Assembly (NCBI GenBank): GCA_003194525.1
Contig: NBIV01000108.1
Span: 62,001 to 126,000, forward strand
Direction: 5' to 3'
Length of the DNA stretch: 64,000 bases
Origin: Gracilariopsis chorda
Lineage: Eukaryota; Rhodophyta; Florideophyceae; Gracilariales; Gracilariaceae
Below, piece after piece: positions 1,626 through 54,554 of the stretch (its first letter is position 1; each line of letters opens with the position of its first letter). A program made the translations under genes and the position numbers. Under the pieces are notes generated by a model. That model was given only the letters and a program-made list of their open reading frames with translations. It was not told the DNA's origin and did no database searches.

Positions 1626-3168
1626 CTTTGAAGGGTTTTGCAGTTTTTGATGACTTTGTTGTATTGTACGCTTCGTTTACTAATAGTTTGTTCTCGCACT
1701 CGATCATCACTTCTACTACTAAGGTTACGATTTAGGGTTTGTAAACAACCTTCCGCACATCAGTCGACGTTTCAAATCCGATATCCTCATTGCAGCTGCG
1801 TGCCACACTGCGTTTTACTATGAGCGGTGGTAAATGGTCTCCTTCACGCTTCTTGAAGGGGATTAGATGATCCCGCGTTTCTGTTTTGCCATGTGGTGCC
1901 TCTGGAGTCTCGGAACCCGATCGTTTCATAACCTTGCAATTGCTTTGAGTCATTGAAAGCACATTGCAGCAAAAAGCAGCTGTGTGTTGCTGTCGCAGAA
2001 GGCATGTTAGACTCCTCCACCCCCGTCACGTTGTGTCTCAACTTGCTTTCCACCGTAAACTTGAACTATATAGCGAAGGAAAGCGAGAAACCAGTTGCCC
2101 CTGTCCCTGCCCACAGGTGTTGCTTCCGGACAGCCTTCAGACGTCAGGAATCGTGTGGAGAAGCATGCTGCTTCCCTTTATCCTTGTAACATTATCCACA
2201 GTGTACCGTTGGCACTTGACGGAATGTCAGTGGTGACGTGTGATCATACATACGTTGTCCATCTCGGATGAATTGCATCTGTACTAGCATTTGCAGATAC
2301 ACTTTGATCATTATCAATATATTTTTCTCCGCAAGTCATGTTCGAATCTGTCTTGTGAGCAGTTCATATATCAATTTCATTTACCCAGTCCATGTTTTGT
2401 AATGATTACCAGCACGATCCGTGAAAATTCCATCCGTCACTGTCGTGAGGCATCGCAACAGAGTGTAAGGCGATTGCCTACAGAACATCCCACGCATTCC
2501 ACTAGAGATAGCCTTTGCAGTATTGTCCTCTCGAGTCGTACAATTTAGGAATGAACTCGAGACGTTCAACGCCAGGATGGAAGAAAGTTATGTCAGAAAC
2601 TGTTTTGATTCACATTGCCCAGCACTTTTTGTATTCTCCAACTCTGGCTCGCATATCGAGCACAAATTATGATCATATGATGATTGGTGTCTTGTTCTCA
2701 AGCGATTTCTAGAGATATTTTTGTCTTCTATGCGTCAATAAGGCGTCTGGGGCCAAGCATCTTGGCTAAAGGTGTACCTTTTGCACCTTTACAGATCTTG
2801 CATAATGTGCAATAACGATAGCAGCGCGGCCCCATACTTCTATCGTAACGGTGCTACACTTCACGTAAGATGTGCACTTTGTTCTTGCTCAACATGATGA
2901 CAGCTGCGGAGCAACACTTATTTACCAAAGGCACCTGATCTCGCTATTGTATCAAAGCTGCGAACATTACAAAACTACATCGCCAGTTTAGACAAACCGT
3001 TACACTAACTACAAGTTCTAACACAGTATGATACTGTTGAAAGAATGAAAGGACGAGAAGAATTGAAGAGGGCGATCCCGCTCAACAAAAATCTGTGCAG
3101 TGGAAGACCAAGCAAGGAGAGCACTGGGTCTCGAGGCTGCAAAAGGGTATGTAAACAGCACGGCATGC
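1626..3168. other. Intergenic spacer with two tandem hairpins
   Basis: About 1.5 kb lies between the end of the SNARE-like gene and the 3' end of the RRM gene. Short ORFs exist on both strands but none has a convincing start, length or family match. The only structure I see is a pair of adjacent inverted repeats at 2752-2791, listed separately. The two flanking genes converge, so the spacer should contain both 3' UTRs. Confidence 0.5.
2752..2791. repeat. Two tandem small inverted repeats
   Basis: GCCAAG (2752-2757) and CTTGGC (2761-2766) form a 6-bp stem with a 3-nt loop. It is followed at once by TAAAGGTG (2767-2774) and CACCTTTA (2784-2791), an 8-bp stem with a 9-nt loop. Both are exact. 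They could form RNA hairpins in a 3' UTR or be remnants of a small element. No function is shown. Confidence 0.6.
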
Positions 3169-4386: not shown

Positions 4387-4799
4387 TGACGTTGGAAAAG
4401 CAGGGAGTTGACAAACGGAAGACGAAATGACGCAGGATAAAGACGGGGAGTGGTTGAAGGAGGGCAGTGCACGGCAACGTTTGGTGCACATGTAGATACC
4501 TCTACTGCTGGTGGGGGGCGGGGGGGGGGGGCAGCAATCCTGCCGCAGGAGAGGAGTTTGCCAGAACGAAGCCGAAGCACTTGACCCAATCAGCGTGCGC
4601 GAACAGTATTATTGCGCTTGTATAAAATGGTGATTATTTTTTCCGCGCGAAAATGCGCGTGTACCGTTGGTAGCGTCGGTAACTCATCCCTGGACCGGGA
4701 GTTGCGCGCCAGGGCCATTTTTGAAATTTGCTTTTTCCTCTTTTTGCTTTGGTTTTCGCAAATCAAGAGCGGGCCGTGTGTGTGACCGCAGTGCAGTCA

Positions 4800-4834
4800 G
4801 AGCAGTGCGGTGCAGTCACTGCACCGCACTGCTC
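4800..4834. repeat. 35-bp perfect palindrome with flanking inverted repeat
   Basis: Seventeen-base arms (4800-4816 and 4818-4834) are exact reverse complements around a single C at 4817. The left arm starts GAGCAGTGCGG and the right arm ends CCGCACTGCTC. Outside it GCGGGCC (4769-4775) pairs with GGCCCGC (4835-4841), giving a nested structure of about 70 bp. GTGCAGTCA also occurs twice in direct orientation (4791-4799 and 4810-4818). It lies in the shared upstream region of two regulatory-protein genes. It could be a cruciform, a dimeric-factor operator or an element scar. Confidence 0.85.
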
Positions 4835-6537
4835 GGCCCGCACTGGGATAGAGAGAGAGCCAACTTGACGAAGCAAAACGCCTCTGCTTCCAGTTCAGCG
4901 CAAGCGCTTTCCGCCCGCAGCAGTCAGTCAAGAACCCTTGCTGTCCGCTATGATGCGACAACCGGAAAAGCTCCACGCCTGCATCTTGCGCGGTTGAGTC
5001 TAGAATGGGACGTATGCATGTGTTCTGTGCACGCTTGTCTCCCGTTCATGCACCTGGTGTCAAACCAGACACATACGGGCTGGGCGATGGAACTCGTAGC
5101 GATATATACAAAGATACAAGAGCGCACATCGTCAACACTGATGATGAAGCGCTGCCGTGACAGTCGAGCGCTGGCTGCAGTGCGCTTGGAGGCGCTCAAC
5201 TGATCTTGAACCGCCTATCCAGCTGTCACTGCCGCCCGTCTTTTGTCCAATCATTGTGCTGCCTCGCACTGCTTTATATTTGCTATCCGCCAATCAGAAG
5301 CGAACATCACACGCACATGCGCCCTCTGCTTCCCGTCTGTTGCTTGTTAGATGAGCTTCTTCCCCGTCTTGCTCGACGCCAAAGTCTACGTCAGCTCTGG
5401 AGCATCAGTCTTAGTCTGAAGCGCCATTGACCTGGTTCCACAGCAATTCACTAACATTTATGTCACGCGAAAGCGTATCGACCTATGGGCTTTTGATAGC
5501 CATGACAGACACACTCCAGCGCTGTCGTATGTTCGACGTTCTGTCAAATCTCAGCATCCATCGTTGTTATTAAGAGATACTGTAGAGTTCCCCAAATCGA
5601 ACAGATTGGGGACGGTCATTTTAGTGCGCCTTCGACTTCGTGCGCTGGCTAACGGCTGTAGCTGTTAGATATTCAGTGCTTTAACTAACTCCACGGCATC
5701 CACGATGTGTCGTCGTTCTACGCAGTCACTGTTGCCGTTATTTATCCTGACGACCACTGAAGCTCTCGCCCGTACAGCGGCTTGAGCTGTCTGCATAAAA
5801 GATATTGTGTTGGTCCCGCTCAGTAATGATGGATCGTATATCCACATGCAGTTTCTTCAGTACAATCATTTCCTTTTTATCTGACCGATAACATGCTGGT
5901 CTCCGTGAGAAACTTAGTCGCCACTCTATTTCGCTTCCATCGTTTGCGGAGGGAAGAAGGGTACAACTCTTGAACGCGGATCAGATTGTGTCCTTCCTCT
6001 TGTGTTCCTTTTCACCAATGCGATACGCCACCAGTGTAACAATCATAAATCAGCAGTTCCCTTCTCTGTCCCGTTACATCATATCATTAGCTTTCTTCAC
6101 GTGGAATTCATTTTAAGCGCGTTCAATAACAGTTTTTGGATTGGGCCTTTCTGCCGTTGTGCAAAAGCTGTCTATCAGAAATGGCTATATTCCTATAACA
6201 GTCGATTGTATGACGTCTTTTGTGGAATGATATAGTTCTCTTACTGTGGCTGTCGAACAAAATCATTGCTTCCGCTTGCTCACGTGTGCTTTCGTTAGGA
6301 GAAAAAATCATGGTCCGATTCCTATTCAAACTCACTAAGCCGGCATCCACAGGCAGAAGGCTGTACTGTGGCCCTTTGCCCTACGGATTTCAAGTTCTGT
6401 TGTTCATCCGATACAAGCCCCACTTCGAGGCTATTAATCCTGCTATTTAAAATATCCCACAAAGAGACCTTTCGGCTTGTGAAGCATCATGACTGCTCAA
6501 GTTATTCCCTCGGGCTTTGACTCTCAAGGTATCGAAC

Positions 6538-11673: not shown

Positions 11674-14119
11674 ATGGACCAGATGTACTTGGAGAGCTCA
11701 AACGGATTCCCGCAATTCGGACAAACGGGTTGTAGAATTGCCTTATCCGTCGTTGAAGGCTTGACGACGATACGTGTTCGGGTGCTCCAGGCAGACAGGG
11801 TTGTTCGTGGCATGAACTGTACTGTAAGTTGCAGTCTGTAATACGTCTTTGTCTTTTCCCGCCGACTTCACTGACGTGTATATAGCGAACCGGAGATGTC
11901 AGTCGAAGCATTCGCGTTAGATGTCAAGAATTATTGGAAAATACTTCCCCTTGTCGTACCAGTACCTATCCCTGTGTTCTTCATGACCTAGATACCACTA
12001 CCTACGTCTTGATCTCTGGATTGCAGCAGACATTCACATTGTTCACAGACAACATGGCTTGTAATTTATCTATCCAGCATTGCTTTGACTGTGATACCCG
12101 CCTTGATGATAATCGCGTTCCTTGAAACATAGCAGCAGCAACTCGTACTGGCACTACTATCGTAATCACAGCCTAACTAGCAAGCCTCTATAATCAGGTA
12201 GAGTTATGGCGCGATGGACGACATGCGTAACTACTCGACCTCTCTCAATACAGCTCGCACCACCAAGGCCCGATCCTGTTCTGCCTCTCCCCGAATCAAG
12301 TCCTTCAACTATCGAAATAGCAGGTTTGGAAGCCGTTGTAATTGTATCGTTCACCAACAGAGGACTGAGGTCGGCAAAGGCTGTGTTCCCTACCAGAATG
12401 GCCAATCCAACGCACCCAAGAGGATACTTGCAGACCTCTCTTCATTTTGACATACATATATCTCCAAGCTTCGTTCGATATGATGGTGTATCTGTGTCTT
12501 TTGTTGTGGAAGGTGAAGAGGCGGTCACGCAGTCCATTTACGCTTCTCCGTCTCAACCTGTGGTCTATTCGAACTACACGTACGCGAAACCGCAAGTATC
12601 TGCGGAACTAGTTCGAAAAAGCTCAATGTCCAAGCTTCCCAGACAAGGGGACTACGACTTATACAGACATGAAGTCTGGATTTCTGGGACCTGCCTCCAA
12701 ATCAAGTATACTTGCCTTCAGTCTCATCCCTTGTCCGCAGCGTTTGCGGATTTAGCTCTAAGGAAGAATCTGATTTATGACTGGACTTCTCCTGTCTCAT
12801 TACAATGTCCAGAGAGCAGCATCTCTCTCATGATACACTTTGCGAAGATACGCGCACAAGAATCCATTTTCAAAGCACCGAAACTTGGCCTAGTACATTC
12901 ACCAGGTGGTGACATGTTTTACTCTGGAGTTTGGTGTAATGATCAAGCAGAATACGCGGCCCCTGCTCTCGCGTTCTTGGGTGCTCCGAAATCAAGGGCA
13001 AGAGAGGCTGCAATTAATTCTGTTCTCGCTCTTGGAAAACATTTCGATTATCAGTCCGAATCAATCCCATACAGCGTGGAGATCGATGGGGGTTACGTAG
13101 GCAGACTCGATCGAGGAGATGCGGCAATGTTTGCATGGGGCGCATCACTCTTAGCACTTACCATTGCTGAGGAAAACGTAACTGCGAGGCTGTTTCCTCT
13201 TATCAGTTTTGCGTGCGGTATATTGTATAACAAGCTGGCACAATCCCAGAGCGGTGTGATTCCATCCCAGAGTGATGAGTTGGAAGGCCGCTTTCCGACC
13301 GGGGAAGAAAACTTGTCAACAAACTGCCTAACCATTCTAGCGTTCGAAACTGCAGCGCAAGTTGCCGTCGAAGCAAAAGACCCCCTGCTGGAACAGGAAT
13401 ACAAAGCATCAGCGAGTACATTGCGTTTGAACGCACACAGGTACTTTGCGTGTGGTGGTGAAAGAAAGTACGCTTACTACAAGGGGTGCCCAGACGCACG
13501 TGGATGGGCCTGCCTGGCTGCATTAGCGGGTCTACCAGATGGACAGCAAGCTCTGGAGTATTGCTTAAGCGAAATGTGGTGTGATGATGGCGTTCTCGTT
13601 TCTAGCTCCAATACTGCAGTTTGGGATCGTACTACTTTGTACGCCATAAGGGCAGCCTATCGTTGTGGTTTGGTTGACGTTGCTACGGAGAAGTTGCGGC
13701 AATACGCGAAAAAGCGTTTCACGGAGGGCCCGGCAGCGCCCTATGCTGTCGAAAACAATGACAGCTGGGCTCAATTGGCAGCGGAAAGTGCCCTCTTTGT
13801 CCGCGTTATTCTAGAAGGTCTTCTTGGTATTGAAGTAATATCAGATCGCAGATTGCTTTTTACACCAAGAAGTCCAACATCGTGGCCGTCTTACGTCGTT
13901 GACAAAGTACATTTTGCTGATGTATCACTAACTTTCCGCGTGAACGTCGTAGATGACAGTACATATGTGGAGGTGGAGTCTGATAGCGGAAGCTGCAATA
14001 CTGAGTTTAAGGATGGCCACTTGCTTCTCCGTGTACCGAGACCGCCCACTCCTCCAGAACTGACCCACTTGACCCTTCAACAGTACGCTACATGCCGTAT
14101 GATGACGCTTGATAGGTAA
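11674..14119 (+). CDS. Six-hairpin glycosidase-like protein (spliced)
   Basis: Three exons, 11674-11823, 11886-12060 and 12198-14119, total exactly 749 codons (748 residues). Intron 1 (62 nt, GTAAGT...TATAG, phase 0) and intron 2 (137 nt, GTAATT...ATCAG, phase 1, with CCTAAC upstream of the acceptor) join frames without a stop. The ATG at 11674 is in good context (cacATGGac). The C-terminal two thirds have the alternating helical pattern of (alpha/alpha)6-toroid glycosidases. Landmarks include WCNDQAEYAAPALAFLG near residue 355, LDRGDAAMFAWGASLLAL near 410 and a WDRTTLYAIRAAYRCGL segment. No classical secretion signal is visible. The precise GH family and substrate are not recognisable, and several families share this fold. 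The large third exon has an in-frame ATG at 12206, which a single-exon gene finder would take as the start. Confidence 0.72.
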
Positions 14120-18396: not shown

Positions 18397-21300
18397 ATGG
18401 ATGCAACAGCTAATGCATTCGTTGAAATTAACGGCAGAGTTATTCGTCATGCGCGAACCTTATATGCTCAGCTGAAAGCAGCAACTCGTCCGCCACGCCC
18501 ACACGCCTTTGAATTCGAGGAAGGTGAAGTCTCCCTCTTCGTGGATTACACACTGAGCAATCCAGAATGGGAGACTGATACCGAAGTGCTGAAGAACATG
18601 ATGTCAACAGTACTTGTTCCTTCAAGCTGGCCGTTACCAGGTCTACCCTCACTAAAACAACAAGCTGGAGACGCTGCCAAGAGCGGCGTATGCGGGCAAG
18701 TGTGGCGAAAGGACGAACTGGCGTACAAGTGCCGAACTTGTGAACGTGATACATCTTGCGTTATCTGCGTGCCTTGCTTTCGAAATGGTGACCACGAAGG
18801 ACATGATTATGCCATGCTCCGAATCAACGGGGGGTGCTGCGATTGCGGGGATGACCAAGCATGGCATCCCAACGGATTCTGCCGTCATCACAAAGGAGCT
18901 AGCGCAGAAGATGAAGATCTAAGCTCTTCTTTACCCCCAGACCTGAAGCGCGCCATTGCGGAATCGGTGATGGTTGTGTCAGAGTTAGTATGTAATTCTT
19001 GTACAATGCTTCACAAACTGCGACGATCTTCTAGGTCCATTCAACATAACAGATTGCGCACCCGCACATGCACCCTCTTAGAATGGCTGTATGAAGTTGT
19101 CAGATGCGGTGATGGTATTCGCCGTGTGGTTGGGCTTCTGCTAACTTCGAAAAACTTCAGCATTTCAAGAAGAAGTGATAAAGAAAGGCAACAGCGGGAG
19201 ACAGCAGCAAATGAGACGTCCGGTGTATCATGGCTTGAACTAATGCTCAGACTTGACGGGGTAGATATGCTACCATATCAAGTTTTAGTCAAACTACATG
19301 CTCTATACTTTCAACTAATCACAGACACAGTCTTCAAGCGGATATTTCTCGAGAAGTTTGCATTGAACTATCCAAGATATGTACACGCTCACATCGCGCT
19401 TAAGTATGATTCAAGAAACAGGTCCTCAGAAGAAGACGAAGACTTGATAGAAAAAACTGATATCATCTCTAAATTTACAGTTCAGCTTTTCACAGTCCCC
19501 GCTCTGGTCCCAATAATGTTGCAAGATGGAGGTCTTCTGGAGGTTTTGATCAAGTTACTTGGCATTATCTTCGAGTCTACTTCTGATCCTCTTGATTTGT
19601 ACAGAAGAGATGTCCCGTTCGAAAATACAAATTATGCATGGCATTGTTCACGGAACAACCCGGCTGTTGACTCTACAGACTTGAAGACGAGTGGTCTAAG
19701 TAAGACATGCCTTTATTCTCTTGAGTCATTGGAGAGGGCGACGAATTTCCCAAGTGTGAAGTGGTTGGTTATGAGACATGCTCGTCGAACAGAAAGTCCT
19801 CTTTATACCACCTGCGATGTCAAACTCACTGATGAGACAGAACTCCAAGTGCGCGATATCAAAGGAGAGTATACTGCTTTCTCAGATGAAGATATTGCTT
19901 TTCCAGTTGAGGTTGAATATTCTCAAATATCGAGTTCTGACAGCTATGCTCCCGACGTTTCAGGGATCACGGGATCACCGATTTCTTCCAAATTGAGGCA
20001 GTTCTCGGCTTTTGAGGAAGGGCTTGAGACGTTCGACCTCAACATAAACCGGCTTGTCAGTGGGTTGCCAAAAGATACAGTTTTCGGCTCTACTGTGGCA
20101 GAAGCACGAGCTTTGGAAGACGAGTCGAGGAGCGGAAATGAATCTCTAGTACATCCAATGCGTCTGAATTGGTCGGCTGGGGAAGTGTTACTTGCCAAGG
20201 ACACATGGTGGAGAATAATGGCAGATCTTAACTATATTCTATCACACAAAGAAGCCGCCTTTCATTTGGTTCACGTAAGGGTGGATTTATTTCGTCTGTT
20301 TGTACGAATGATTTCGATGCTTCAAGGCATGCATCCGCTATCGAGACGGCTTGGGGATCATGTTCTTATGGATCAGACTTTTTGGACTGAAGGTTACAGG
20401 CTAGAGGCTGAAGTGTACCACTTATCTGAGCTTCTTGTCGTGGGTTTTTGTGGAGAAGAAGTACCGGACAGCTTTTCTGCAGAGACCAAGGACAAGTGTA
20501 CATATGACCTCCGTTCTTCACGTCAGCGAGCCATTGGGGTACTGGGGAGATGCCTCGAGGATTGGATTGAACGAGAAGAAGCCATTGAAGCGCTGTCTAC
20601 GTACGCTGGCGAGTATTTCAGTGTTGCCCATGCGGTCTCGATTCATTTGCCTTTGCACAGATTGTTCGCACTGTTCGTTCACCACGCCATTCGTCTGGAC
20701 AATGTAGACTTACGAACAATACTGTCCGGAATGAGAAATAACACACCCGAGTCGATAGCCCAGAAACTAATCACACACCCTATTCGAATACAGGCGTTTC
20801 TCTATCAAGAAAGGGCAAGGATGTGGAGAAGGAACGGTAGAATGATAAGCTTAATCCCAGTTTACTACCGATATCCCTGGTACTCAGAGTGGTATGTCGA
20901 CCTTGACATCTTCTTGCAACAATGCTGTGCGGTGATCATGGGAGATAGGGAGTTCGTCCAAGTAGCTTTGAGAGCTTTCCGAATCAGAGGTGTGGGCCAG
21001 CTCATATCATTTGTGAAATCGTATGACGAAAGCTCTTCCTTATCTGCGGAATTCCTAGAGGACCTCATATATGTTAACGGTGCCAGTGGTACAGGGAGTT
21101 ATTATCGCCAAGGAAGTTTGGAGCGTAATTCTCTCGATAGACGTTACGTGAGTATCTCAGCAGTTGACATGGCAACTTTTTCTCTGGCTCCTAGGATGTT
21201 TAAGAAGAAGGACACTGCAAACGGACCAAAACTGATATGGATTCGCGGCGACATTGTAGAAGATATATCAAGATTTGGTCCGGTCCTCTTGGATGGCTTG

Positions 21301-24300
21301 ATGACATATCTTGTGCATATAACATCCGAACGCACTCTCTGTGGTCATTCTGATGAAAACAGCTTAAGAAGAAAGTTCATTCATCAACTGTGCTCTAGAG
21401 ACAGAACTTACTCTCAGCTATACAAGATCTGTTCCTTCCGGATTTGTAATGTCTTAGGGAGGGGTTCAGACACACCTACAGGTCCTGCTAGAACGCCAGG
21501 CCTGTTAGTAGAACGGGTGATTGGTAGTATAGCCGAGTATTTGGAACCAAAATATATGGAACAGGGTAAATACAGGCTGAAGGACGATATCTGGAAAGAA
21601 TTCGACCCGTTCTTTCCGCAATACACGCCCCGAGAGAAGAATGATGCAGAAGTACGCCATGCATCTGTGAGCAAACGACGGAAACAACAGCTAATGATGA
21701 TTACTGAGGAAATAATCAGCAATCGCCCTACATGGCAACAGTTCAATGGTTTGAAAAGACTTTCTCTTTTCCTATGCAGCGACCACGATCTCGCGATTGC
21801 CACAAGGATTCTGAAAGAACTCGCTGAGATTCCACATTCACAGAAGATGCCTGCAACAATTTGTGCTACGGCCCTTCATCTAGTCTCCGCAAACGTGGAA
21901 TCAGTTCGAATCAGCAATCCCCCAAGCAATGCAATGACCTGGTTGCTGAACTGTTTTAGACCGGAAGCTTTTGACCCATCGGTCCTTGGTAGTATATGCA
22001 GGCTTGCGCTTCGAACAGTCGAATTGCAAGCAGATTTTGCACCGACATTCTCGAGAATCCTGTGTGAGTCATACAAGCGTTGCCCTCCAGGTCCTAAACT
22101 ATTTCTTCAGCAGCGTTTGCCACAGTGTGTTGCATCCCTGTGTGCAAAAGACGGTAGGTTGTCTCAACAAGAGGAGCTGGTAACTGCTGAGGATAAACGA
22201 CGTAGGAGGTTACAAGAGAAAAAGAAAGAACAACAATCTGCGATGCTGGCTCGAATGCAATCGGCACAAGCTGATTTTGAGAGACATATGTCAGAGGCAA
22301 AGGATTTCAAATCTGACACAGTTTCTCATCCTTATGCGGATAAGAGTACAACAAACGAAAACCAAGGCGCGGACAGGAATTTTCGGAAGGGTTCGTTCGA
22401 TATTCTGCATCGGGTTCAAGACTCATTTCGAGAAACTCCAAGTGAAATTCCAAAGTGCGCCCTATGTCATGAAGAAGGAGGAGCAGGAAGCAATGGTCCA
22501 TTGGGGTGTATTGGGTTCAAGCAAATGACAAAGTTACCCCTTATTTCTAGAGAGCAATTTGAATCGCAGTTTCATGTTACTCGAAGCCATAGTACTTGTG
22601 ACAGAGTCGAGACGCCAGGGAACAATGTGAATACTGCCGGACTACCTGATTTTCACAGAGAGAGTGCCGAAGCGATGCCTGTACCAGTCTCCAACTTCAT
22701 TGACCGACATCAGCGACTAGTCAATCTTAAACTCTTGGAAGAAGGTATTGAAACGTCGACGAGTATGCATGTGTCTCTTTGTGGGCATCTGATTCACAGC
22801 GACTGCTTTGAAGGTTACTTCTCTAATCTTATCAGTAGTAGGGAGACGAATATTCCTTTTGAAGGAAATAACGTCGTGAACTTGGAGAACATGGAATTCT
22901 TGTGCCCCGCTTGTAGAAGACTTGCCAATTTGGTTCTGCCATGTGTCGACATACCCTTCGACGGCTTGGAGAGCAAGAATGAACCGCGAGAGAACACAGG
23001 CACCAAAGACGTTGATGCAGAACAGCTATTCTGGAAGTGGTTAGATGAGGCCAGAGAAAAGGTTCTTACAGGGAAGCATGTCGCATGGAAATGTGAAAAT
23101 GGTAGTACCCTGACAGGAGAGATATGGAATGTTAGCCATGACGTGTTTCAACTGTTTTTGCCGACGAAAGACATCACGGCCGAAAGAAATCGTCTCATAC
23201 TCAAAAAGGGCTTATACGCACTTCCCGTATCAGATCTGTTAGGGCGGTTCAGACTTTGGACCACGGATTACGTGTGGCTTAATAGAGACGGCTCGTTCGT
23301 TTCAGATGTTTACTGTCAGCCCTGTACGTCCCTTGTACTCCCCAGCGCTTTAATAGCATCCGTCGCATCGGCTGAGATTGTCGCTAGATCATACGAGTGG
23401 GGTGGTTCTCTTCTGCTGAACACGCGGAGAACATTGAAGAAACTGTTTTCGGCCACACGTGCACAGTTTCATCTGAACGACAGAAACATTCAAGAAGACG
23501 AGCGCAAAAAGGCCCTTAGTGGACTATGGAGAATAGCTACACAGGAAGCAGGGGTGGTGAAGGCAGACCCATTTGCAATGCTGTCGTATTTTTGTTTCAT
23601 GTGGCCAACTTCTTTGACAGTCGATGATCTCAGTTTCTTAATTCGGCTCTGCTATGTGCACTTCTCCAGAGTACGAAAGTCCATGATGGGGTTGAGGTCA
23701 TCGGCGCGTTCAGCAGAGCTAGTCTTGTTTCTTAGAAGAGCCGCCATTCTTTTTTGGTGTGTTTCTTCATCCAGGGACCTGCAACTCTCGGTGTACACGG
23801 AAAGCGAACGTACTTCGAAGACTTTGGTCCAAGAAATTGAAGGACTTGTTGAGTATTTGAATGTACCCGTCATCAGATCTTCATGGAAGAAAGATTGCAA
23901 TTATTCTGCCGAATTGCAAGACGTATTGCTTGATGAGAATCAAATAGAAAGATCCTTCGGTTTACGACCATCACCGGTGGGCCTCCGTAAGCTCCCAGAT
24001 ATCTTCCAAACGCTCTTAGAAAGGTTAGCCCGAATGCCGTGCGACCTTTGTCGAGAAGTACCAAGGAGGCCCGCGCTATGCCTTGTCTGTCACGACATGC
24101 TATGTTATCGTTCTGAAGGTAATGTTGGGGAGCTCCTCAAGCATGCTGAAACTTGTGGCGCTGGGATTGGGGTGTTTCTATTGCTAAAGAAAGCCAAAGT
24201 TTTCGTTTTGCGTGGAAATCGAAGTGCTGTGTGGGGTTCACCTTATCTGGATGCGCATGGAGAGGAAGATGAGTTTCTTCGCCGGGGAACGCCGCTGCTT

Positions 24301-24450
24301 TTGAACAGAGACAGATACTCATCCTTGGAGCAGTTGTGGCTTTGTCATGGATTTGACCAAGATCCTCGGGTTCTCAGCAAAACTCTGCGTACAAATATAA
24401 GTCCTCTCGGAACCGATTTCCTAGCATTAGCAATGCCCCCTACATTGTGA
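18397..24450 (+). CDS. UBR-type E3 ubiquitin ligase (N-recognin, UBR1/PRT6-like)
   Basis: An intronless gene of 2017 residues, the usual length for this family. The UBR box, the zinc finger that binds basic N-terminal residues (type 1 N-degrons), spans about residues 99-166 (CGQVWRKDELAYKCRTCERD, NGGCCDCGDDQAWHPNGFC). A RING-like module is split: CALCHEE near 1354, then CGHLIHSDCFEGYF near 1463 and FLCPACRR near 1502. A C-terminal Cys/His cap lies near 1881-1905 (PCDLCREVPRRPALCLVCHD), as in the UBR autoinhibitory domain. The protein works with an E2 enzyme in the Arg/N-degron pathway. I see no ClpS-like N-domain after the UBR box, which resembles plant PRT6 rather than yeast UBR1. A basic coiled coil (DKRRRRLQEKKKEQQ) precedes the RING. 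The ATG at 18397 has good context (aacATGGat). Confidence 0.93.
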   Translation: MDATANAFVEINGRVIRHARTLYAQLKAATRPPRPHAFEFEEGEVSLFVDYTLSNPEWETDTEVLKNMMSTVLVPSSWPLPGLPSLKQQAGDAAKSGVCGQVWRKDELAYKCRTCERDTSCVICVPCFRNGDHEGHDYAMLRINGGCCDCGDDQAWHPNGFCRHHKGASAEDEDLSSSLPPDLKRAIAESVMVVSELVCNSCTMLHKLRRSSRSIQHNRLRTRTCTLLEWLYEVVRCGDGIRRVVGLLLTSKNFSISRRSDKERQQRETAANETSGVSWLELMLRLDGVDMLPYQVLVKLHALYFQLITDTVFKRIFLEKFALNYPRYVHAHIALKYDSRNRSSEEDEDLIEKTDIISKFTVQLFTVPALVPIMLQDGGLLEVLIKLLGIIFESTSDPLDLYRRDVPFENTNYAWHCSRNNPAVDSTDLKTSGLSKTCLYSLESLERATNFPSVKWLVMRHARRTESPLYTTCDVKLTDETELQVRDIKGEYTAFSDEDIAFPVEVEYSQISSSDSYAPDVSGITGSPISSKLRQFSAFEEGLETFDLNINRLVSGLPKDTVFGSTVAEARALEDESRSGNESLVHPMRLNWSAGEVLLAKDTWWRIMADLNYILSHKEAAFHLVHVRVDLFRLFVRMISMLQGMHPLSRRLGDHVLMDQTFWTEGYRLEAEVYHLSELLVVGFCGEEVPDSFSAETKDKCTYDLRSSRQRAIGVLGRCLEDWIEREEAIEALSTYAGEYFSVAHAVSIHLPLHRLFALFVHHAIRLDNVDLRTILSGMRNNTPESIAQKLITHPIRIQAFLYQERARMWRRNGRMISLIPVYYRYPWYSEWYVDLDIFLQQCCAVIMGDREFVQVALRAFRIRGVGQLISFVKSYDESSSLSAEFLEDLIYVNGASGTGSYYRQGSLERNSLDRRYVSISAVDMATFSLAPRMFKKKDTANGPKLIWIRGDIVEDISRFGPVLLDGLMTYLVHITSERTLCGHSDENSLRRKFIHQLCSRDRTYSQLYKICSFRICNVLGRGSDTPTGPARTPGLLVERVIGSIAEYLEPKYMEQGKYRLKDDIWKEFDPFFPQYTPREKNDAEVRHASVSKRRKQQLMMITEEIISNRPTWQQFNGLKRLSLFLCSDHDLAIATRILKELAEIPHSQKMPATICATALHLVSANVESVRISNPPSNAMTWLLNCFRPEAFDPSVLGSICRLALRTVELQADFAPTFSRILCESYKRCPPGPKLFLQQRLPQCVASLCAKDGRLSQQEELVTAEDKRRRRLQEKKKEQQSAMLARMQSAQADFERHMSEAKDFKSDTVSHPYADKSTTNENQGADRNFRKGSFDILHRVQDSFRETPSEIPKCALCHEEGGAGSNGPLGCIGFKQMTKLPLISREQFESQFHVTRSHSTCDRVETPGNNVNTAGLPDFHRESAEAMPVPVSNFIDRHQRLVNLKLLEEGIETSTSMHVSLCGHLIHSDCFEGYFSNLISSRETNIPFEGNNVVNLENMEFLCPACRRLANLVLPCVDIPFDGLESKNEPRENTGTKDVDAEQLFWKWLDEAREKVLTGKHVAWKCENGSTLTGEIWNVSHDVFQLFLPTKDITAERNRLILKKGLYALPVSDLLGRFRLWTTDYVWLNRDGSFVSDVYCQPCTSLVLPSALIASVASAEIVARSYEWGGSLLLNTRRTLKKLFSATRAQFHLNDRNIQEDERKKALSGLWRIATQEAGVVKADPFAMLSYFCFMWPTSLTVDDLSFLIRLCYVHFSRVRKSMMGLRSSARSAELVLFLRRAAILFWCVSSSRDLQLSVYTESERTSKTLVQEIEGLVEYLNVPVIRSSWKKDCNYSAELQDVLLDENQIERSFGLRPSPVGLRKLPDIFQTLLERLARMPCDLCREVPRRPALCLVCHDMLCYRSEGNVGELLKHAETCGAGIGVFLLLKKAKVFVLRGNRSAVWGSPYLDAHGEEDEFLRRGTPLLLNRDRYSSLEQLWLCHGFDQDPRVLSKTLRTNISPLGTDFLALAMPPTL

Positions 24451-32145: not shown

Positions 32146-33966
32146 TTACGGCGCTATATGGATGAACGATTCTGTAGTTAGACGGGTATTGCAACCAGGC
32201 ACCGGACATTTCCCGAAAACTGAAACTGTCTGATTTCCGCATATGGAACAGAACGCGTGATTGCATGGTGTCTTGAGGTGAGCGTTTTCTTTGCACATGA
32301 AACACTTCGCGTATGTTTCTAAACGTTTTGGAACACTCTGTCGTGGTTTGTGAAGTACGGATGCATTGGGTGCAGACGGAAATACATCTGAAGCAGCTGA
32401 GAGTACATTCTTCCGATGTTCTAATCGTTGGATTAGTTCGCGAGGGTCATCTTGGAATGAGGGTGGCGGAGGGGGAGGTATGTGTCTTTGAGACTTTTTG
32501 GGAGATCTTGTTCTCGTCTCCACCCTAGGTGGCAACACTGCAGAGTCCGGGGATACAGGGTCCTCATCGAAGCTGCGACGATCTGTCCGCGGTGGACTAG
32601 AATTTCGGGGTCTGGTGGGATATGAAGTTGAATTTTGTGTTGGCATGTTCGGTACATCTGTAGGTACTGTAGGTGCAGTGGCCTTGAGGAATAGACGAAG
32701 CTGCTCGCACTTGTCGAGCATTGCTGATGCTTCCCGTTGCACCTTCGCCTTAAGCGACAAGCGGGCATTCTTGTTAAGCTCCGACCCAATATCAAGTTCC
32801 TTAGAAGCTGGAACAAGAAGCGATAGTGCCTTCATGTAGCCCGCTTCAGCGGCACCCATGTTTCCCTGCTCTTCTTGCTCAATCGCTAAAAACGCGAGCT
32901 GTCGTCCACGATTGATCTTTTCTGCGAGACTTGGGTCGACTGTGGTTGGACCACGTTGCGCAAGATGGGCGGGAGTACCGTAAAGAGGTTGAGACGGTGC
33001 AGTATCGTATGCGTCTCCCCAGCCAATTGGAGCTGGCTGCGTCGGTAACCTTCGTGCGTGTCCTCCTTGGCTGAAAGCAATGGGGGCGGTTGATGATCCA
33101 TTGGGCGCTGCGGTGCTGTGATTGGGGCTGGTAGCTTCTGCAGATGCTGACGGTACGGCAGTGGACGGGTTATTTCCCGTTAAGGCTTGCGCAGCAAATA
33201 GTTCAGCCAGTTGAGCGTCCGTGTTACGATTACTAGGAAGAGCTTGTGCGATGTCGAGCATGGGGGCTGCGTCAGAAGGAAGGCTCGGGTTTGTGCTCGA
33301 CGCACTTTGCAAGTGCCTGTGGGTTTGACTTAGTGATCTTACCGGATCCCGCTCGTCTTCTGAAGCTGAGTCGAAGTTGGATAGGGGTGGCAAAGGTTCA
33401 TAGGGAAGGTCATAAATCTTGCTTTGGTTAAAACGTTGGCGATTTTCTTCTTTCCATTCCTCTTCTTTTCGCTCTCTTTCCGCTCGACGAGCCTTGCGAC
33501 GTGCATCCTTCGCTCGTCGTTTCACTTCGACTATGTCATCAGAAGGAATATCAGTATTTTGCAGTTGGGGAACGGAGCTGGAAGGGGAGGATGCCGACTG
33601 TGTGCTTGATGCAGCGGGTACACCATCCGTAGACTGTTTTCTGACATGTCGAGCTTTTTCCCATATCAGTGCTCGCAAAGACTTCTTCGCAGGGGCAACA
33701 TCACTGGAACGTCTCTCTTCGTCGATTTCTTGCTCGTCAGGTGCCGGGGATTTTGGTGGGGTAGCCTGAGTTTCGAGAGGAGGCATTTTCACGTCAGCAC
33801 TCGCACCTCGGCGAAGTTTTGCGAAGCGGAGCATTTCGTTTTCACCTGTATTCCCTTCGCCGCTCACGATCAACTTCAGATTCTGAAACCACAGCCGAAA
33901 CCAAATCCAGAAGGACATGAAGATACTTCGTAAATAAAGCTTAGCGGCAGAACGTTCAACGCTCAT
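32146..33966 (-). CDS. MIT-domain protein with C-terminal RING-like zinc finger
   Basis: The protein has 606 residues from the ATG at 33966. The frame is open 54 codons further without a better start, and ATGs at 33918 or 33834 are alternatives. An aromatic hydrophobic segment near the N terminus (RSIFMSFWIWFRLWFQNLKLIV) may anchor it to a membrane. A basic Glu/Arg coiled coil follows (VKRRAKDARRKARRAERERK). Residues about 344-425 form a MIT domain (INRGRQLAFLAIEQEEQGN through AGYMKALSLLVPASKEL), the module that binds ESCRT-III tails on endosomes. The C terminus (about 553-606) is a Cys/His finger, CFMCKENAHLKTPCNHAFC then CSICGNQ and CPVPGCN, most like a RING. The likely role is endosomal or ESCRT-linked, perhaps a ubiquitin ligase. 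The function is inferred from domains only. Confidence 0.78.
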   Translation of the reverse strand: MSVERSAAKLYLRSIFMSFWIWFRLWFQNLKLIVSGEGNTGENEMLRFAKLRRGASADVKMPPLETQATPPKSPAPDEQEIDEERRSSDVAPAKKSLRALIWEKARHVRKQSTDGVPAASSTQSASSPSSSVPQLQNTDIPSDDIVEVKRRAKDARRKARRAERERKEEEWKEENRQRFNQSKIYDLPYEPLPPLSNFDSASEDERDPVRSLSQTHRHLQSASSTNPSLPSDAAPMLDIAQALPSNRNTDAQLAELFAAQALTGNNPSTAVPSASAEATSPNHSTAAPNGSSTAPIAFSQGGHARRLPTQPAPIGWGDAYDTAPSQPLYGTPAHLAQRGPTTVDPSLAEKINRGRQLAFLAIEQEEQGNMGAAEAGYMKALSLLVPASKELDIGSELNKNARLSLKAKVQREASAMLDKCEQLRLFLKATAPTVPTDVPNMPTQNSTSYPTRPRNSSPPRTDRRSFDEDPVSPDSAVLPPRVETRTRSPKKSQRHIPPPPPPSFQDDPRELIQRLEHRKNVLSAASDVFPSAPNASVLHKPRQSVPKRLETYAKCFMCKENAHLKTPCNHAFCSICGNQTVSVFGKCPVPGCNTRLTTESFIHIAP

Positions 33967-34555
33967 CAGCGCTGTTGTACAGCAAGGATATCTAATGCAC
34001 ACGTCATTTCGCTTACAATTGTTCATGGCAACTTGTGCACACGCATGCACCAGCACAGGAGCATCATGCCTGTGGAAAGCGAGACAGTGTAGAAGCATCC
34101 TGGGCACCCGCGTCACGAGTCCCTCCACACGTGTATCCTGGTATCTACATACAGTAGCCTCAACACGCTGCTGGCTCTAGTTTGCTGGTCTCGAGCAATT
34201 CCAAACTCGCCTTTGGCTTGGTGATGAAGTGCGAAGGCGTAACGACAGCCCGAGAGTAACTCTAGCTAGGCTTACCACGAGTGCATCGATTCCCCCCTTT
34301 GTCCAACAGCTGATAATCTCGCTCCATGTGTTTATGAAGAAGATTTTGCTAGGAAATCTCGAGTGGATTGCGTTGGGAAGTCTAAAACAAGTATTGAGTG
34401 GTGTCCTACTAGTCATTTGTTTCATATCACAAGATCGAGGAAGCGACCCTTTTTAGAGCACAGCTTCTGCAAAAGTTTTTCCTCCGCTCCAGTTTAGCGC
34501 TTTATCTTGCAGAACAGTTCCTCTTTGGCGACAGTTTCGGGTGCTTGTCGACGGT
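33967..34555. other. Divergent upstream region of the MIT-RING gene and ATP23
   Basis: About 590 bp. Part of it may be leader of the MIT-RING gene. I see no TATA box or repeat. A + strand ORF at 34229-34456 has no family signal. Confidence 0.4.
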
Positions 34556-45928: not shown

Positions 45929-46547
45929 AATACGCTGCCCGAACAAGCTACTTAAATCGATAGAAGCCATCCATCATCATCATCCAGAATCTGTAATCAG
46001 CAAGAGAGCAGGAAAGACTTCCCATGATTCCTGGGGACAATGATGAGATTTTTTCAAACTCTACTCATGTTCAGTACCAAAAGAAAACTCAATACCAGAA
46101 CTGAAACACTTTTCCACATGCATAGCTGCAAAGGCGTAGAGGTTAGCAATAGCTAGCAGTCTTATCCTTATAATACTTGGAGCAAACAGCCGTGTATTTG
46201 CGCAGCCAAGTACGTGTTAAGGCTGGCTCGTTTGAACAGTAAGGCGACAAATGCCCATGTGTTCTTATACCTTTGGACACTACTCTGAAGAGCACAATCG
46301 TCGCAAACAAATGATATGATCCAGAACGGTTAGTTGTTACATGAACAATCCTACATTGTTTCTTCCAAGTTTTATGAACTACCTTGAACATCTCAAATGC
46401 GTAACTATGTACAGTTTCTGGCATGGTAATCTTCTAAAGGGGTATGCGAGTCTTCATCTTGAAGGGATTCTTGATTCAACCGAGATCTCTTCGCAGTGTA
46501 GCCCCAAGAGTCACTGTTTGGTTCTGTTGCTTCAACTCAATCTAATT
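45929..46547. other. Convergent spacer between the RCC1-like and HUWE1-like genes
   Basis: About 620 bp. It was searched on the minus strand for a continuation of the HUWE1-like protein; no HECT-like or other coherent frame is present. A CATCATCATC microsatellite lies near 45968-45981 and a GGTTAGCAATAGCTAGCAGT repeat word at 46141-46160. Confidence 0.5.
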
Positions 46548-49500
46548 CTACCAGTGTCGATGACTGCTACTTGAGAAAGAAATTTCATCATTTCCCGAGT
46601 CTCCAGTCATCGCTATGTGTGCCGATGCCTGTCCCAGAAAAGCTAGGGCCTTCAAAACAGCGGCGGTTACTTCAAAGTGCTTCGAAACAGATGTGTCCAT
46701 CTTGTTCAGACTCCTTGCAAGGTCGTTGGCGAGGTCTGTTTTCAGGATTGCTCGTAGCACCCGGAGTTTGGTTCCCGACGTTATGCAGCTAGCAATACCT
46801 CGAACTGCGTCCACGTTGACAACTGCTTTGTCAGCCTCTACTTTTGCAGCGGCAGCTAGTGCTTGTACAGTTGCATTATGAGTATTCGCAGATTTCGAGC
46901 ACAATGCGTAGAGAAGCTTCCGCGTTGGGCTTATCAGAAGCTCGTCATTCTGTGGAATGGCTCCCGCCAATGACGGTAGTTCATAGTTACTCGAGGCTTC
47001 AAATGGAAGGCATGTTTGAACAACGTAATCCAGAGCAGATCCATCTACTGCCTTTGACGGCGACTCAGTCGACAGGAATGCCACTGCGGCCATTTGAAAC
47101 AGCTGAATAAGCTCAGCCAGGGTTTCTAGAGCAAACTGGGTTAGGTCTTGATTCGAATTAAGGTTCACTGAAGATACAAAGCTCCTCGTAGGACCTGTGT
47201 CCTTCTTCGCCTTCGAAACCAGTAAATGCGACAAAGCGTTGATCACTTCCTTGATGTTTGGCCTTTCATTCAGTTTTCCCACCATATCCGGGAAACGGAG
47301 CGCTTCTTGTTCTTGTAGCTGAAGTTGACTGCCTGCCAGAAGTTCAATGGCTTCCACAGTGTGTGAAGCCGCTGAAACAAAGCTGTTCATACTTCTGCTC
47401 ATCATCGGCGCAGAAGCGGATAACAAATACTTCACGGTGAATCCCGATCTAGCGCGCGGTTGGGCAACCAATGAGTGAATCTCTGCAATCATCGCTTCCT
47501 CCAACGTCCTTGGGTCTTCCACAATGTGCCGAAGAATCGTTTTCACAAGTGCCCTTACAGTTCGATAATCGGTTCCATGTGCAACCCTGGTATCCAACTG
47601 CGGTAGAGCCAAAAGGGCGGGTACTGCACCAGCCTCGTACGCCTTCTTTGCAATGTCCCAGTCGCGGGTAATAGACGCTAATAACTGAAGACAAGCCACC
47701 AGCGTGTCTCCAATTTTCATGTTCCGCCACATGCGAATACACTCCATGCAGATGTCAAGAACTGATCTTTTTTGCAGTCGTTGTGAATCATCGACTTCTA
47801 CGTCAGGAACCATCTCTCTGATGGCCATTTTGGTCCGATCAATCGCAGCTTCTTTATGCTGTCTTGCAATGGCTTTAACTCTTGCGAGTTCATCGTTAAC
47901 ATCTCCAACATCATTCTTCGCTTGCTTTATAGATTGGGTGCCATTAGGAGATTGCATATCGACATCATTTGGCTGGACATCTGCATCCTTGCGCGCTTCT
48001 TCGGACTTGCGCGAACGATCGCCTAGCGCTTTGGTGAGGTGCACGACAGCTCTTTCAACGCCGTTACCGGTCGTATCTTCAGTGTCCATCTTATCACCTG
48101 CATCGCGTTCTTTCTTCGCCTTTTCATCTCCTCTAGCAAGTATCTTGCCACGCTTTGAAAACTCGATAAGGTTATCTTTGAACTCATATCTGTACCTTGC
48201 GTCAAGTAGCAACATGCATGAGGTCATCCATCGCAATATCGCTTCCTCAACTCGGGATGGGATATGCGGAACTTCGCTTCCTGCCTTTGTTCGAGGAGAG
48301 AAAGCTGGCGGCTCTTTTGTGCCTCTTTCCACGAACCGTCGCTTCCGGCTCTCAGAGCTCCTCGCGTTACCGTTTCCCTGATCTTCTTTGATAGATAACT
48401 GTTTAATCGGCTGTGTAGCCTCTTGGTCAACATTAGGATCTCTAGAAGCATCTTCCAAATCTGAAATCAATCTTCTGAGAGTCTTAAATGCCAACTCAAA
48501 CACGCCGTTTTCCGTCAAACATTTTCTACTCCTGTATCCTCCGTAGTGGGCCAAAAGTGTGGCAACGCGGCCTACGGTGGAGATATCCTGGTGAGGATTG
48601 GTATTTAGAGCATGAATCAAGCCTTCATTGATCAGTTTGGAAATTACTTCGAGACTTTGATTTGTTAAAGCCCCATCTTTTTGCAAAGCCGATAACAACT
48701 CCACGCAAAGAAAGGAGAGGTCTTCAGTTCCGTTTTTAGCGTACTGCACAATCTCTTGGATCACCTCTATCAGTGACTGAAACATGCCCTGCTTGATGTC
48801 CTTAAACGCTTCAATTTGTACGGGTAATATTTTCAGACTCTCAGTATTCATCTTACTCTCTTGTTCGTTGCTCAGTTGATGCTCAGAAATAGAGTTGTGA
48901 ACAACCCGAATTATCTCTGAAATTTCTTGAGCTTCCAATTGTGTTGACTGCTTCAGACCTGAGCGGAGAAGATGAATGTCAGTCCTTAACGAACGACGAA
49001 GAAGATCTACGTCATCGGTATCCACGGTGCGTGACAGGATCTTTGGTTTCGAACTCGTCAACCGACCAGCCTGAGCTGTTAGGGTCCCCGATTCCTCATC
49101 ACTGTCTTTGCTTGGAAGGGAAGGAGAAGAGCCGCGATTACTATTTTCATTCTCTGAAAAGTCAACTGGGCCTGCAGAACCTGAGTCCATCATAACCTCA
49201 TCAGTTGGTGTTTGCGGTCCTGCCAGAACATCTTGTATCATTTGACGCACAATCGCTCTCCCATCTACTTCATCGTCACTTTGTGATTGATCCACATCAT
49301 CCCCTCTCTGGTTAGAGTCCTGTTCCTGGTCATGTTCATCTCCACTACCTTGGTCATCTCTTTCCCAGTTCCTTTCGTCGTCACTAGCAGCAGAATCTAT
49401 GTCACCGTCCATGTGAGCAAGAAGCCACTCCGTTGCATGCTCAACACCACCTGGTGCGGTCCTTCGAATGGCTATCCTGGCCATTCTTTCTGAGAATCCC

Positions 49501-52500
49501 ATTTCCGTCAACGTCGGTAGTATGCTGGGATCGGGGGAAGGCGTGCTTCTCGGTGGGAGATCTGTGGTGTCCATATCAGGGCGTGAATTGCTATCATCAT
49601 TTCCATTCGGCTCAGGTGCGTCAGTGGTTTCTCCCTTGCAAACATCTTTGGCTACGTGAGAGGCGGTATGAACTAAAGCAACAAAGTCAGCAGAAGCGGA
49701 ATCATCTTGGCGAAGTACCGATAAGAGATTTGGCACATTCTTCGTAACCGGGTGTACCATGCGCAATGCAGCTGCTAGAGCCGTGCGCTGAATTTCCTCT
49801 TTGGTCCACTCGACTGAGGAGCTCAGAGGTTCGGTAACGGTTCCTTCTGTACCGAGAAGTCCTGGACATGATCCTAACGACAAAAGAAAACCACAAAGTG
49901 AGTTCCAAACATCTGAAGCAACCTTCCGAACCGAAATACGTCTGTGAGCTTGTAAGCTTGCTTCACCCAGCTCCTTGACTTGATAGCGAAGCGTTTTCAG
50001 AGCGTTATTGTCGCGCAGAAGAGCACAAAGGACTTCGTCCGTGGTCTTTGACGACACTTCAGGACCAGTGTCCGAATCTGTTACGGCTATCATAGCTATT
50101 CCCTTCGCTTGATTGGTGACTGAGTCACAAGAAATGTCCATGTCAGACTTCTCGGTTTCAGGTATTGCTGTAATGTCGTCTTCAAGGGATCCCGGTCGTT
50201 CAGCTGGTTCTTTGGGAGGCAGCGCTTCTGATAGCGCGAGAAGGTATGAAGCAGTGGCCAGTGGATCGTCCCCTTGTTTTCGATAAATCCTTTCACGTAT
50301 ACAAGACTCACTTGAGAGCTGAGGCTGCATATTCTGCTCCTTCTCTGCTCCTCTCGAAACAACTTTGGCGATTTCCATTGGACGAGTTGCTGCGAGTAGA
50401 ACCGCAAAGCCGCCTGCCTCAAAAAAGGATTTCAACACCATGGACTGAGTTCCTCTGCGATGTTCATCGAAAATAGTACCTTTAATCTCAATGAGGACAC
50501 CGCGGATATAATCCCATGCAGCAATCACGTTGTTATCACCCATGGTGCCAACATTAATGTCCCAGAGAGATTCAGCTGCTTTAAGATGTAATACAAAAAT
50601 TCGACCAATGGTGGCAGCAACGGAACTTGCACACGCAGCATACAGACTGGGGTTCCTCGCTGATCGACGGGACGTGAACGTGAGCCCTTTTGACAGAGTC
50701 GAGTACAGATTCTGAACAGCCACCGCAAATGTGACTAAATCCCATGCCAAACCCTTCACTTTTTGTCTCGGAAAGGCCTTCGTCTGAGGAGGAACCGAAA
50801 ACTTCCTACAGGCATCCTCAAACTCTTTGCTCTTAGATATAGGTGTACCTAGGAGTTTGTCCACATTTCCTAAATACCGAACACAATTAGATGCTTGCAA
50901 GGGTTTCGACGTTGTGTTCGCCACGGCGGTGACGGTTGAGCACGCTAGATCCCCATCTGGAGCGCTCAGAACTAAACCAGTGTAAACCGTAGCCAAATGA
51001 TATCTTGCTGCTCTTTCTGCGCATGATATCGCTGCGGCAATCTCGCGGCCCCCACAGTCCTCCCAAGACAGGAGTGATGACCCAAGGGCCCCACGCAGAA
51101 GTCCTGAAAGTAAGACTGTATCAACGCGAAGAATTTTGATATGACTTTTAAGCTCTTCACGAAGCTGCTCTCGATTTCTCTGTTCGCTCTGGGGATTCAC
51201 CTTAGCAAATCGGCCGCTCATTTGGTTAACCAAAATCTGCTCTTCCTCAGGGAGCCATGCATCTCCAAGCTCCTTAGCGACTCTCAAAACACTGGCAGCA
51301 TCGTTTAGAATAGCTGAGAATAAAACTTTCAGCACAGATGCTGGGTGGCGGGCGCTTGCTGTACGAAGGGAGTTGACCAGAGAGTTCATTAGCATATTCG
51401 GGGTTGGATAATGACGATAGAAATTAAGCCCATCTCGAACAGCGGCTTCTGAACAGGCATATGCAGCTGCCTTGCGCATGCAAATTATATCTCGAACCCC
51501 GCTTCCCTTGACAAGTCCCTCCTGATGCTCAGGGCTGTTTTGGGATACTGCTGCGAGTCTGCACGCGTTGTTAGCAATCGCTAGCTTCGTTTTGTCCAGC
51601 AAGATCTGCTGCCAAGTAGACTTGGCACCATCTCCGAATGCTCCAGTGCTCTTATTTGCATGCTTCGAATCAGACGCGATCTGGGGACTCTTAACGCTCT
51701 CTAAGCTTCCGGCGAGTGGCTTGTCTGGCCCACGCGCTTCAACAAAAGCCGCCGAGATTCGTATATATTCTTCAAGTGCTTCCATTCCATCTTTTCGCAA
51801 AGACTCCACATGTCGTACAAGTTCATCGATACCGTTCCCTATTTGATTTGGTATTTCCCCATGAAGAGCCCGTGTATAAAACGGGGTCGCGAGACGAAGC
51901 AGATAGTTCTTGAGAGGTCTTGTGGGAACAATTATGTCCCTTGCGCTCGGAGCCAAACATAAAGCTGCCAAAAGGCTTGGTATACATTTGATGGCTTCAC
52001 CGCATGGAGGAAGACCAACAGCAATAGACCGCAAAACCGTAGATGCTATGCCAGCGTTGACTAATTCAACTGTTGCTGTAGGTTCTGCGTGCGCAATGCT
52101 AGCAGTAACCGATGCAGCAGATTGAAATAGGCTGCCGCCATGATAGAAAGGCTGTCCCAATATCTTTCGAAGACTTCTTGGCAGTTTGGAGTTTGCTACC
52201 AGTTGCCGTACTTCGTTGCCACCAGACCCCAAAGCAGGAATAAGAAGTTGATGTAATGAACGGAGTAATGACCATTCAGAATGAGTAAGTTGGCCTCTTG
52301 AAGTTGCACTTGAACTTGGAGGGGCGTGCTCATGCGCCTCTTCAGGAGTCATTTGCCTTTGTCCGAGACGTTCGTAAAACGCACGTGATTCTCCTCTGTT
52401 TTCGAGGGCACCAACTTCAACTTTCTCATCCTCTTGCGTATAGTCAACATCCGTCATGTCCGAGTCCTCTACTCCGACTTCTATTGCGATACGGTCAGCA

Positions 52501-54554
52501 ATGAGAGAAAGGCCGTTCTGCTCCCTGAACACCTGAGTACCGGAGCTGTGAGATGAGCCCTCTATTATAGCTTGCATCGCTCGAATAGCTCGCGTTACTA
52601 CTCTTGAATGATTGGCGTTGCGGTCACTGATTAGCGGGATCAAAGTTGTAAGTACGCCAGACGTGGTAAACAAGGCTGTGTTGGGAGAGCTTGTTGGTAC
52701 CGCGACGGAATGAACCAATGCGAGCAGAGATTCTACCACCTGTAACTGATCAGCTGGAGACTTCATGTTTGTGCATTCTGACAACACAGAAAACGATTCT
52801 GTTCCAGGTGTTGCTGATGAAACCCCAAATGACTCTTCGTTAGCCTCGTTAAAATGGTCCTTCCTGCTTCCAGTAGTAGGTGATAGAGTCCCATAATCTG
52901 AGTTATCCAAGATATTTCGAATCTCGCTACGAAGCAATGTAGTTAATGCACCGTGATGAATCCCAAGTCCGGTTGCCCCAAGTACGCTAGCCAGCCGATG
53001 GCGATCGGCCGCAAAAGCAATTAGGAAACGAATGCAAATGCTCCGCAGACACAGAGGGACGTCGTCAAGGCCATCTCTCTTCTCTGCTCTGGCGACTGCC
53101 ACGACATCTTGCAAGAGCTCGGTCTCCTTGGCTAGATCATGTGTCGCTTGTTGCATCGGTTGCAAAAGGAAGAGAATAGTTAATGCGTACATTCTGAGAA
53201 TGCAGGCTTCTATTCTCCCTGCTCGACCTTCACAAAAAGCTCGCGCTCTACGACACGCATAGAGAAGGGAGAATAGCTTAACCTTCGGAATCCCATGCTG
53301 GCTCGCAAAGTCTGTTAAAAACCATCTTTCATCTCCAGTAACAGCCTGTATATCCTCGATTATTATTGATGTCATGGCGCCAGCTGTAGTGACAGTTGGC
53401 TGTGTATACTGAGTTGAATTATCCGAAGGCTTAGACGGAGGTAGCGGCAACGGAGTTGAAGAAGCGGGTCGATTGCTTGAGACACCGTTGGACGATTTTC
53501 TTCTAAATGATTCCTGAACGGCAAACGTCCAATCTCTTCGAGCTTTGTCAACAACGTAAATGTCAGAAGTTGAACCAGATGCGGACTTGGCGTACTTAAA
53601 ATGAACTTGCTTTCCATCAGAAGGTAAGGACATCTCCGTGTTTACGCTGCAACACTCCACAAAACCCATTCCCCGTTCTCTACCCCCCCAACCAGTCGAT
53701 ATATCCATAAGGCGTTGAATAAGTTCAGATGTGACCCCAGGATGAGAAGCTCTATATTTCGTCGACTTCTGGTATAGCAAGTGGAGCACTTCAAGCGCAA
53801 GCAAAACAATCGCGGGATGTCCATCAGCTAGCAAAGCTGTCAGGTGTTCAACCGAGTTGTATACATGTCTCGAATCATGGGAAGCATTCCGGATAAACTC
53901 GCGGGTTTGGCGAAGGATCAGACGCACGCATTTTGCAGAAGGCACGAAGGCTTTTGCTGCAATCTCCAGGTCCGCTAATCCAGAGCTCTCAGAATCTGAC
54001 TGCGATACAGTTGGGGCAGATGAAGCCAGTGAATGCGGTGCCATAGCAGAAGGGCCCATCTGGTTTCTCGGCGTCTCTGGCGTTGTGGAGGATGGCAATG
54101 GGGATATCTGATTCGAAGAATGTCTTTGGTTCTTCGTGCTTTCATTCGGAGCTGCAGTTGATGTTTTCCCGAATATGTCATATTCTGATATGTAGCGTTC
54201 AAGAAGCCGATCAAAGCAGTCAAGAACTTTGAACCAGTTAGATAGATTCCGCTCTTCGGCACGCTCGAAGTGGTATGGCGCGTCAAATGTCTCTAAGACG
54301 CTAATCAGCGCTTCGTTACTGGAAGCGTTTACGATCTTCGAGATAGGACTTTTCAAGAAATTAACCTGTGTCGGCGAGAGAAGATGTTAATTATGTTGAA
54401 CAGGAGCGGAGTCGCAGATCATTGAAAAGATGTTAAGAGACGTCAGAAAACAGAAGGATTACCAAAGTAGCATGGTAAACAGCAATAGCACCAGATGCGT
54501 GAACGAGAAAGAACTTACTGCTGCCATAGCCCGTTTTAGCTTGACAAGCACCAT
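46548..54554 (-). CDS. HUWE1/UPL1/Tom1-like giant protein lacking the HECT domain
   Basis: Exon 1 is 54519-54554 (MVLVKLKRAMAA) and exon 2 is 46548-54365. The 153-nt intron is GTAAGT...CACAG, phase 0. The protein has 2617 residues. The N-terminal half is a helical armadillo-like repeat region of the DUF908/DUF913 type (AAVNFLKSPISKIVNASSNE start; LLALEVLHLLYQKS; repeated leucine-rich helices). A UBA domain sits near 1625-1665 (ILPTLTEMGFSERMARIAIR), followed by an Asp/Glu-rich stretch (DDERNWERDDQGSGDEHDQE). The C-terminal helical part matches the region before HECT in plant UPL1/2 (LRVLRAILKTDLANDLARSL). The protein then stops after HIAMTGDSGNDEISFSSSSH. No DUF4414 or HECT follows, and the next gene is only 620 bp away. 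With HECT it would be a ubiquitin ligase; as written it has only scaffold and ubiquitin-binding parts. Confidence 0.85.

Follow-up and report, generated by a model that had tools for sequence, protein, structure and literature searches.

HUWE1 is an ancient quality-control ligase, and human HUWE1, yeast Tom1 and Arabidopsis UPL1/UPL2 each carry DUF908, DUF913, a UBA domain, the UBM (DUF4414) region and a HECT domain, in this order, on one chain. TOM1, HUWE1 and plant subfamily V are concluded to descend from a single ancient gene in which the full order of domains was already present (PMC5913265, excerpt). HUWE1 and Tom1 are helical solenoids closed into rings, in which some insertions are unresolved; the ring-closing interface is required for the activity of HUWE1-type ligases (PMC13196369, excerpt). 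The HUWE1 relative of Plasmodium, PfHEUL, has DUF908 and HECT on one unsplit chain of 8591 amino acids (PMC12007708, excerpt), and HECT E3s have been called single-subunit proteins one and all (PMC10506303, excerpt).

In the red alga Gracilariopsis chorda we found the same domain order spread across a pair of genes, at two complementary loci on two contigs, instead of on one polypeptide. The first gene lies in the window, by which we mean the whole 64,000-nucleotide stretch analysed (contig NBIV01000108.1, positions 62,001 to 126,000; C108 below), and encodes DUF908, DUF913 and UBA. UBM and a HUWE1-type HECT domain with a catalytic cysteine occur only in its partner, on a contig that we call C104. 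We refer to the two as the N-half and the C-half. Pfam detected no WWE domain in either, and the domain orders given for plants and fungi likewise lack one (PMC5913265, excerpt). We consider it likely that a HUWE1/UPL1 gene has undergone fission in a flexible linker and that the two resulting proteins probably reassemble into a ring ligase.

The gene in the window

The N-half gene runs on the minus strand from an ATG at 54554 to a stop at 46548, with one predicted intron, and its product has 2617 amino acids. Predicted exon 1 (54519..54554, minus strand) consists of 12 codons (MVLVKLKRAMAA), with GTAAGT following 12 codons after the ATG. The predicted intron (54366..54518, minus strand; 153 nt, phase 0) has this GTAAGT as its donor, a TTAAC branch-like site and a CACAG acceptor, and two in-frame stops fall within it. 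Exon 2 (46548..54365, minus strand; 2605 codons and the stop) is an open frame, and no other place in the genome matches it in full; counted from stop to stop, the open minus-strand frame (46548-54386) has 2612 codons. An earlier note on this DNA had placed the start at 54554, and this proved right, the 12-codon exon and predicted intron reaching that position.

Pfam identified two armadillo-like regions, DUF908 (PF06012, E 8.1e-27; 52926..53927) and DUF913 (PF06025, E 1.5e-35; 51762..52547), each the only match to its family in the genome, and a UBA domain (PF22562, E 3.9e-15; 49395..49532), all on the minus strand; neither HECT nor UBM was detected in the protein. When searched against the PDB with phmmer (E up to 0.1), the N-half matched 14 distinct sequences, comprising three of HUWE1 (E about 5e-24), four of Tom1 (E 2.5e-12) and seven for which the match was confined to the area around the UBA. 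Judged by sequence similarity, the gene in the window encodes the N-terminal part of HUWE1/UPL1/Tom1, in agreement with the earlier description of a HUWE1/UPL1-type protein that lacks HECT.

The last stretch with recognisable homology lies at 46635..46760 (minus strand), which aligns to HUWE1 2212-2253. Here HUWE1 2210-2254, picked because phmmer printed it (at a phmmer score of -2.9 bits), has a BLOSUM62 score of 60 when aligned to residues 2543-2584 of the 2612-codon frame. None of 1000 shuffles reached this score, the best giving 56, and the same HUWE1 segment scored 42 against the C-half. The last 850 amino acids of the N-half, searched alone, gave no HUWE1 or Tom1 match up to E 10. Because the position is collinear and the score points the same way, the end of the N-half is likely to be homologous to HUWE1 around residue 2253. 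The aligned stretch is followed by 28 residues, serine-rich towards the end.

Beyond the stop, 619 nt (45929..46547) of N-free, unique DNA separate the N-half from a convergent RCC1-like ORF, confirming the roughly 620 bp without a HECT frame that had been reported from first inspection; the longest minus-strand frame in this gap has 96 codons. We also scored codon usage around both junctions, taking 13 further ORFs of the window as the training set. The N-half frame scored 0.07 to 0.19 until about 100 nt before its stop, and past the stop no frame was steadily positive, with single windows reaching 0.10. At the C-half the best windows upstream of the ATG scored 0.05 or less, and the frame after it 0.35, declining to 0.05. 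The contrast is modest and fits the ORF ends of both halves.

The window also contains a second large ubiquitin ligase, a UBR1/PRT6-type N-recognin at 18397-24450 with a UBR box, a winged helix and PRT6_C. Two further frames, 32149-34128 and 12206-14116 (660 and 637 amino acids), gave no Pfam match at E up to 0.001, and an Rfam search of the window at gathering thresholds found nothing.

A complementary HECT gene on a second contig

We searched the organism's own genome (91.3 Mb in 1081 contigs) for HECT domains and found four places, none on the window contig C108. By our reading, C104 alone appears HUWE1-like. The other three frames have different N-terminal regions and were assigned, by reading and with no tree, to the UBE3C/UPL6, RCC1-HECT (HERC-like) and TRIP12/UPL3 types. 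At the locus L008 a HECT-domain frame (1991-5707) carries, again by reading, RCC1-like repeats and is HERC-like.

The C-half lies at C104:184511-189718 on the minus strand, as a frame of 1741 codons that gives 1735 amino acids from the first ATG. It opens with an acidic stretch (28 D/E in a 50-residue window), followed according to Pfam by three UBM (DUF4414) stretches (E 1.5e-24) and a complete HECT domain (positions 3-305 of 306, E 7.5e-96). A TCF motif from residue 1707 of the frame is presumably the catalytic cysteine site. The matches of the C-half rank HUWE1 first (8e-152), then Tom1 (2e-128) and RSP5 (7e-101), and the pieces significant against HUWE1 cover residues 2890-3231 and 3915-4374, the latter ending at the last residue. 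The match of the acidic stretch to HUWE1 reflects composition only (-11.4 bits), and neither half contains a significant counterpart of HUWE1 2254-2889. Upstream of the C-half there are about 2 kb without N-half sequence, a PRA1-type membrane-protein frame and a methionine-synthase-like frame (both by reading). Together the halves amount to 2617 + 1735 = 4352 amino acids, compared with 4374 in human HUWE1. The earlier note had proposed a genome search for a stand-alone HECT protein, and the 1735-residue frame on C104, complementary to the window protein, is such a protein; the option of a split ligase, which that note had put forward, is thereby supported. Its option of a catalytically dead scaffold loses ground, as a HUWE1-type HECT exists on C104 and DUF908 and DUF913 at one locus indicate no second intact copy.

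The same searches bear on a possible second full-length HUWE1. None was detected, DUF908, DUF913 and UBM being confined to one locus each; the two genome matches to UBM both fall inside the C104 frame. The N-half protein gave 13 matches in the genome, namely one full match, ten partial ones in five copies of a repeat, and two at a locus on contig C41 that matches in the UBA only. No relative was found when each half was searched against viral contigs and the C-half against a genome-contig collection.

The repeat just mentioned is at least 6.6 kb long and present in five copies (L021-L025, on contigs C616, C152, C96, C559 and C567) that are 96.8-99.7% identical. It carries an eroded HUWE1 fragment in which N-half residues 1861-1922 (approximately) are fused to 2472-2578; the longer piece retains 59-66% amino acid identity, and stops interrupt the fragment in all five copies. 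N-half residues 1804-1842 are additionally present in two of the five, and another frame, in L022 and L023, is by eye what we take to be a FANCI-type repair protein. The repeat is either a gene-capturing mobile element or a segmental duplication. We considered these fragments as a relic of an ancestral junction between the halves and dropped the idea, since similarity does not extend past residue 2578 and a comparison of the C-half with the repeat loci gave nothing at E up to 1.

Published work on related algae offers a view of the C-half as a transcribed gene. The qPCR primers for UPL1 of Gracilariopsis lemaneiformis (PMC10418974, excerpt) match the C-half at 46 of 46 positions (21/21 and 25/25), and the closest site in five other stretches, the window included, has six mismatches. 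The C-half is therefore transcribed in Gp. lemaneiformis, and the match also places the genome within Gracilariopsis or close to it; the primers are internal to the C-half and uninformative on its 5' end. Heat, cold and ozone are among the stresses reported to induce UPL1 in Gp. lemaneiformis (PMC10418974, excerpt), and on the primer match this stress-induced gene is identified as the C-half. Two genes, UPL1-1 and UPL1-2, are named in Gp. lemaneiformis, Gp. chorda and Agarophyton vermiculophylla, with no split described (PMC10506303, excerpt). We would guess that they are possibly the N-half and the C-half. Three E3 coding sequences above 6,000 bp failed amplification in that study (PMC10506303, excerpt), and at 7.85 kb the N-half coding sequence would fall in this class. 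Four HECT-type genes are described there as including a HECT domain, which counts against the guess; the study lists 11 HECT-family genes (three NEDD4, four HERC and four HECT), against four HECT domains here, and the classes are not directly comparable (PMC10506303, excerpt). A literature search by title, covering few subscription papers, returned no report of a split HUWE1/UPL1 among its best matches, which is weak evidence of absence from the literature.

Probable fission and its alternatives

Since TOM1, HUWE1 and plant subfamily V go back to one gene with the full order, the simplest account of the split is a derived fission, not an ancestral state. A fission could have left products that no longer cooperate, the C-half acting as a free HECT ligase and the N-half as a HECT-less, ubiquitin-binding scaffold. 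The C-half does possess ubiquitin-binding motifs of its own along with a complete HECT, the N-half retains its UBA, and UPL1-1 and UPL1-2, putatively the same two genes, are named as separate in Gracilariales (PMC10506303, excerpt). We nevertheless regard such a loss of cooperation as unlikely on an indirect argument: a pair of complementary loci has been kept that between them have every domain of the family, as would more readily be expected if the two share one function.

It is considerably less probable that the organism has an intact gene and that misjoins in an assembly of 1081 contigs have placed its halves apart. A 772-nt region at the N-half stop and an 802-nt region at the C-half start have no match in the genome other than themselves, and both junctions are N-free. 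The contig of the N-half (212,554 nt) extends 96 and 108 kb beyond the gene on its two sides, and that of the C-half (262,541 nt) about 72-73 kb on the shorter side. An error would require two misjoins, each immediately beyond the point where a frame naturally stops or starts, in unique DNA deep within contigs of this size. The broken assembly suggested in the earlier note is thus disfavoured, and we keep it as a very improbable rival.

That note had also asked about trans-splicing, and here the two ends gave different answers. At the N-half end, the patterns GTAAG, GTGAG, GTATG and GTACG (the four scanned) are absent from the last 403 nt of the gene and from the 619-nt gap. The C-half start is acceptor-like, with CTAAC placed 11 nt before the ATG and then a pyrimidine-rich stretch ending in CAG, and the nearest GTAAG upstream is 1158 nt from the ATG; the C-half may accordingly have a 5' exon or be trans-spliced, as far as such motifs indicate. 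The joining of two primary transcripts into one full-length mRNA, although in keeping with this resemblance to a 3' splice site and with the distance to the nearest GTAAG, is the least probable reading and can hardly be expected, given that none of the four donor patterns stands at the N-half end, while GTAAGT is the donor of the intron within that gene, and that the pyrimidine tract doubles as coding sequence for a run of serines preceded by an in-frame ATG.

A proposed ligase of two chains

We return to the reading that we favour, fission with reassembly. The break would lie in a flexible linker, so that no folded unit is cut. As a cut in the linker would leave the folded arms whole, two chains could still close the ring, and the N-half and C-half would dock via the surfaces that close the HUWE1/Tom1 solenoid. 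In the assembled ligase the N-half would collect substrate or ubiquitin, and the C-half would take ubiquitin from the E2 and transfer it. AlphaFold2 predictions from single sequences were too poor for use, with a mean pLDDT of 39.6 for the last 850 amino acids of the N-half and 34.4 for the last 992 of the C-half. More tentatively, and with slightly more doubt than belief, we propose that the pair may be an obligate two-chain HECT E3, in which the substrate-binding and catalytic halves are separately encoded and regulated and assembly via the ring-closing surfaces is the on-switch.

A natural split in the linker would show which parts of HUWE1 are separable. In place of one protein of 4400 residues it makes two available, of about 2600 and 1700, and such a split ligase would allow a test of whether the two ends, by making contact, truly regulate the enzyme. 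If the split is common to the Gracilariales, it may also explain the double listing of UPL1 there.
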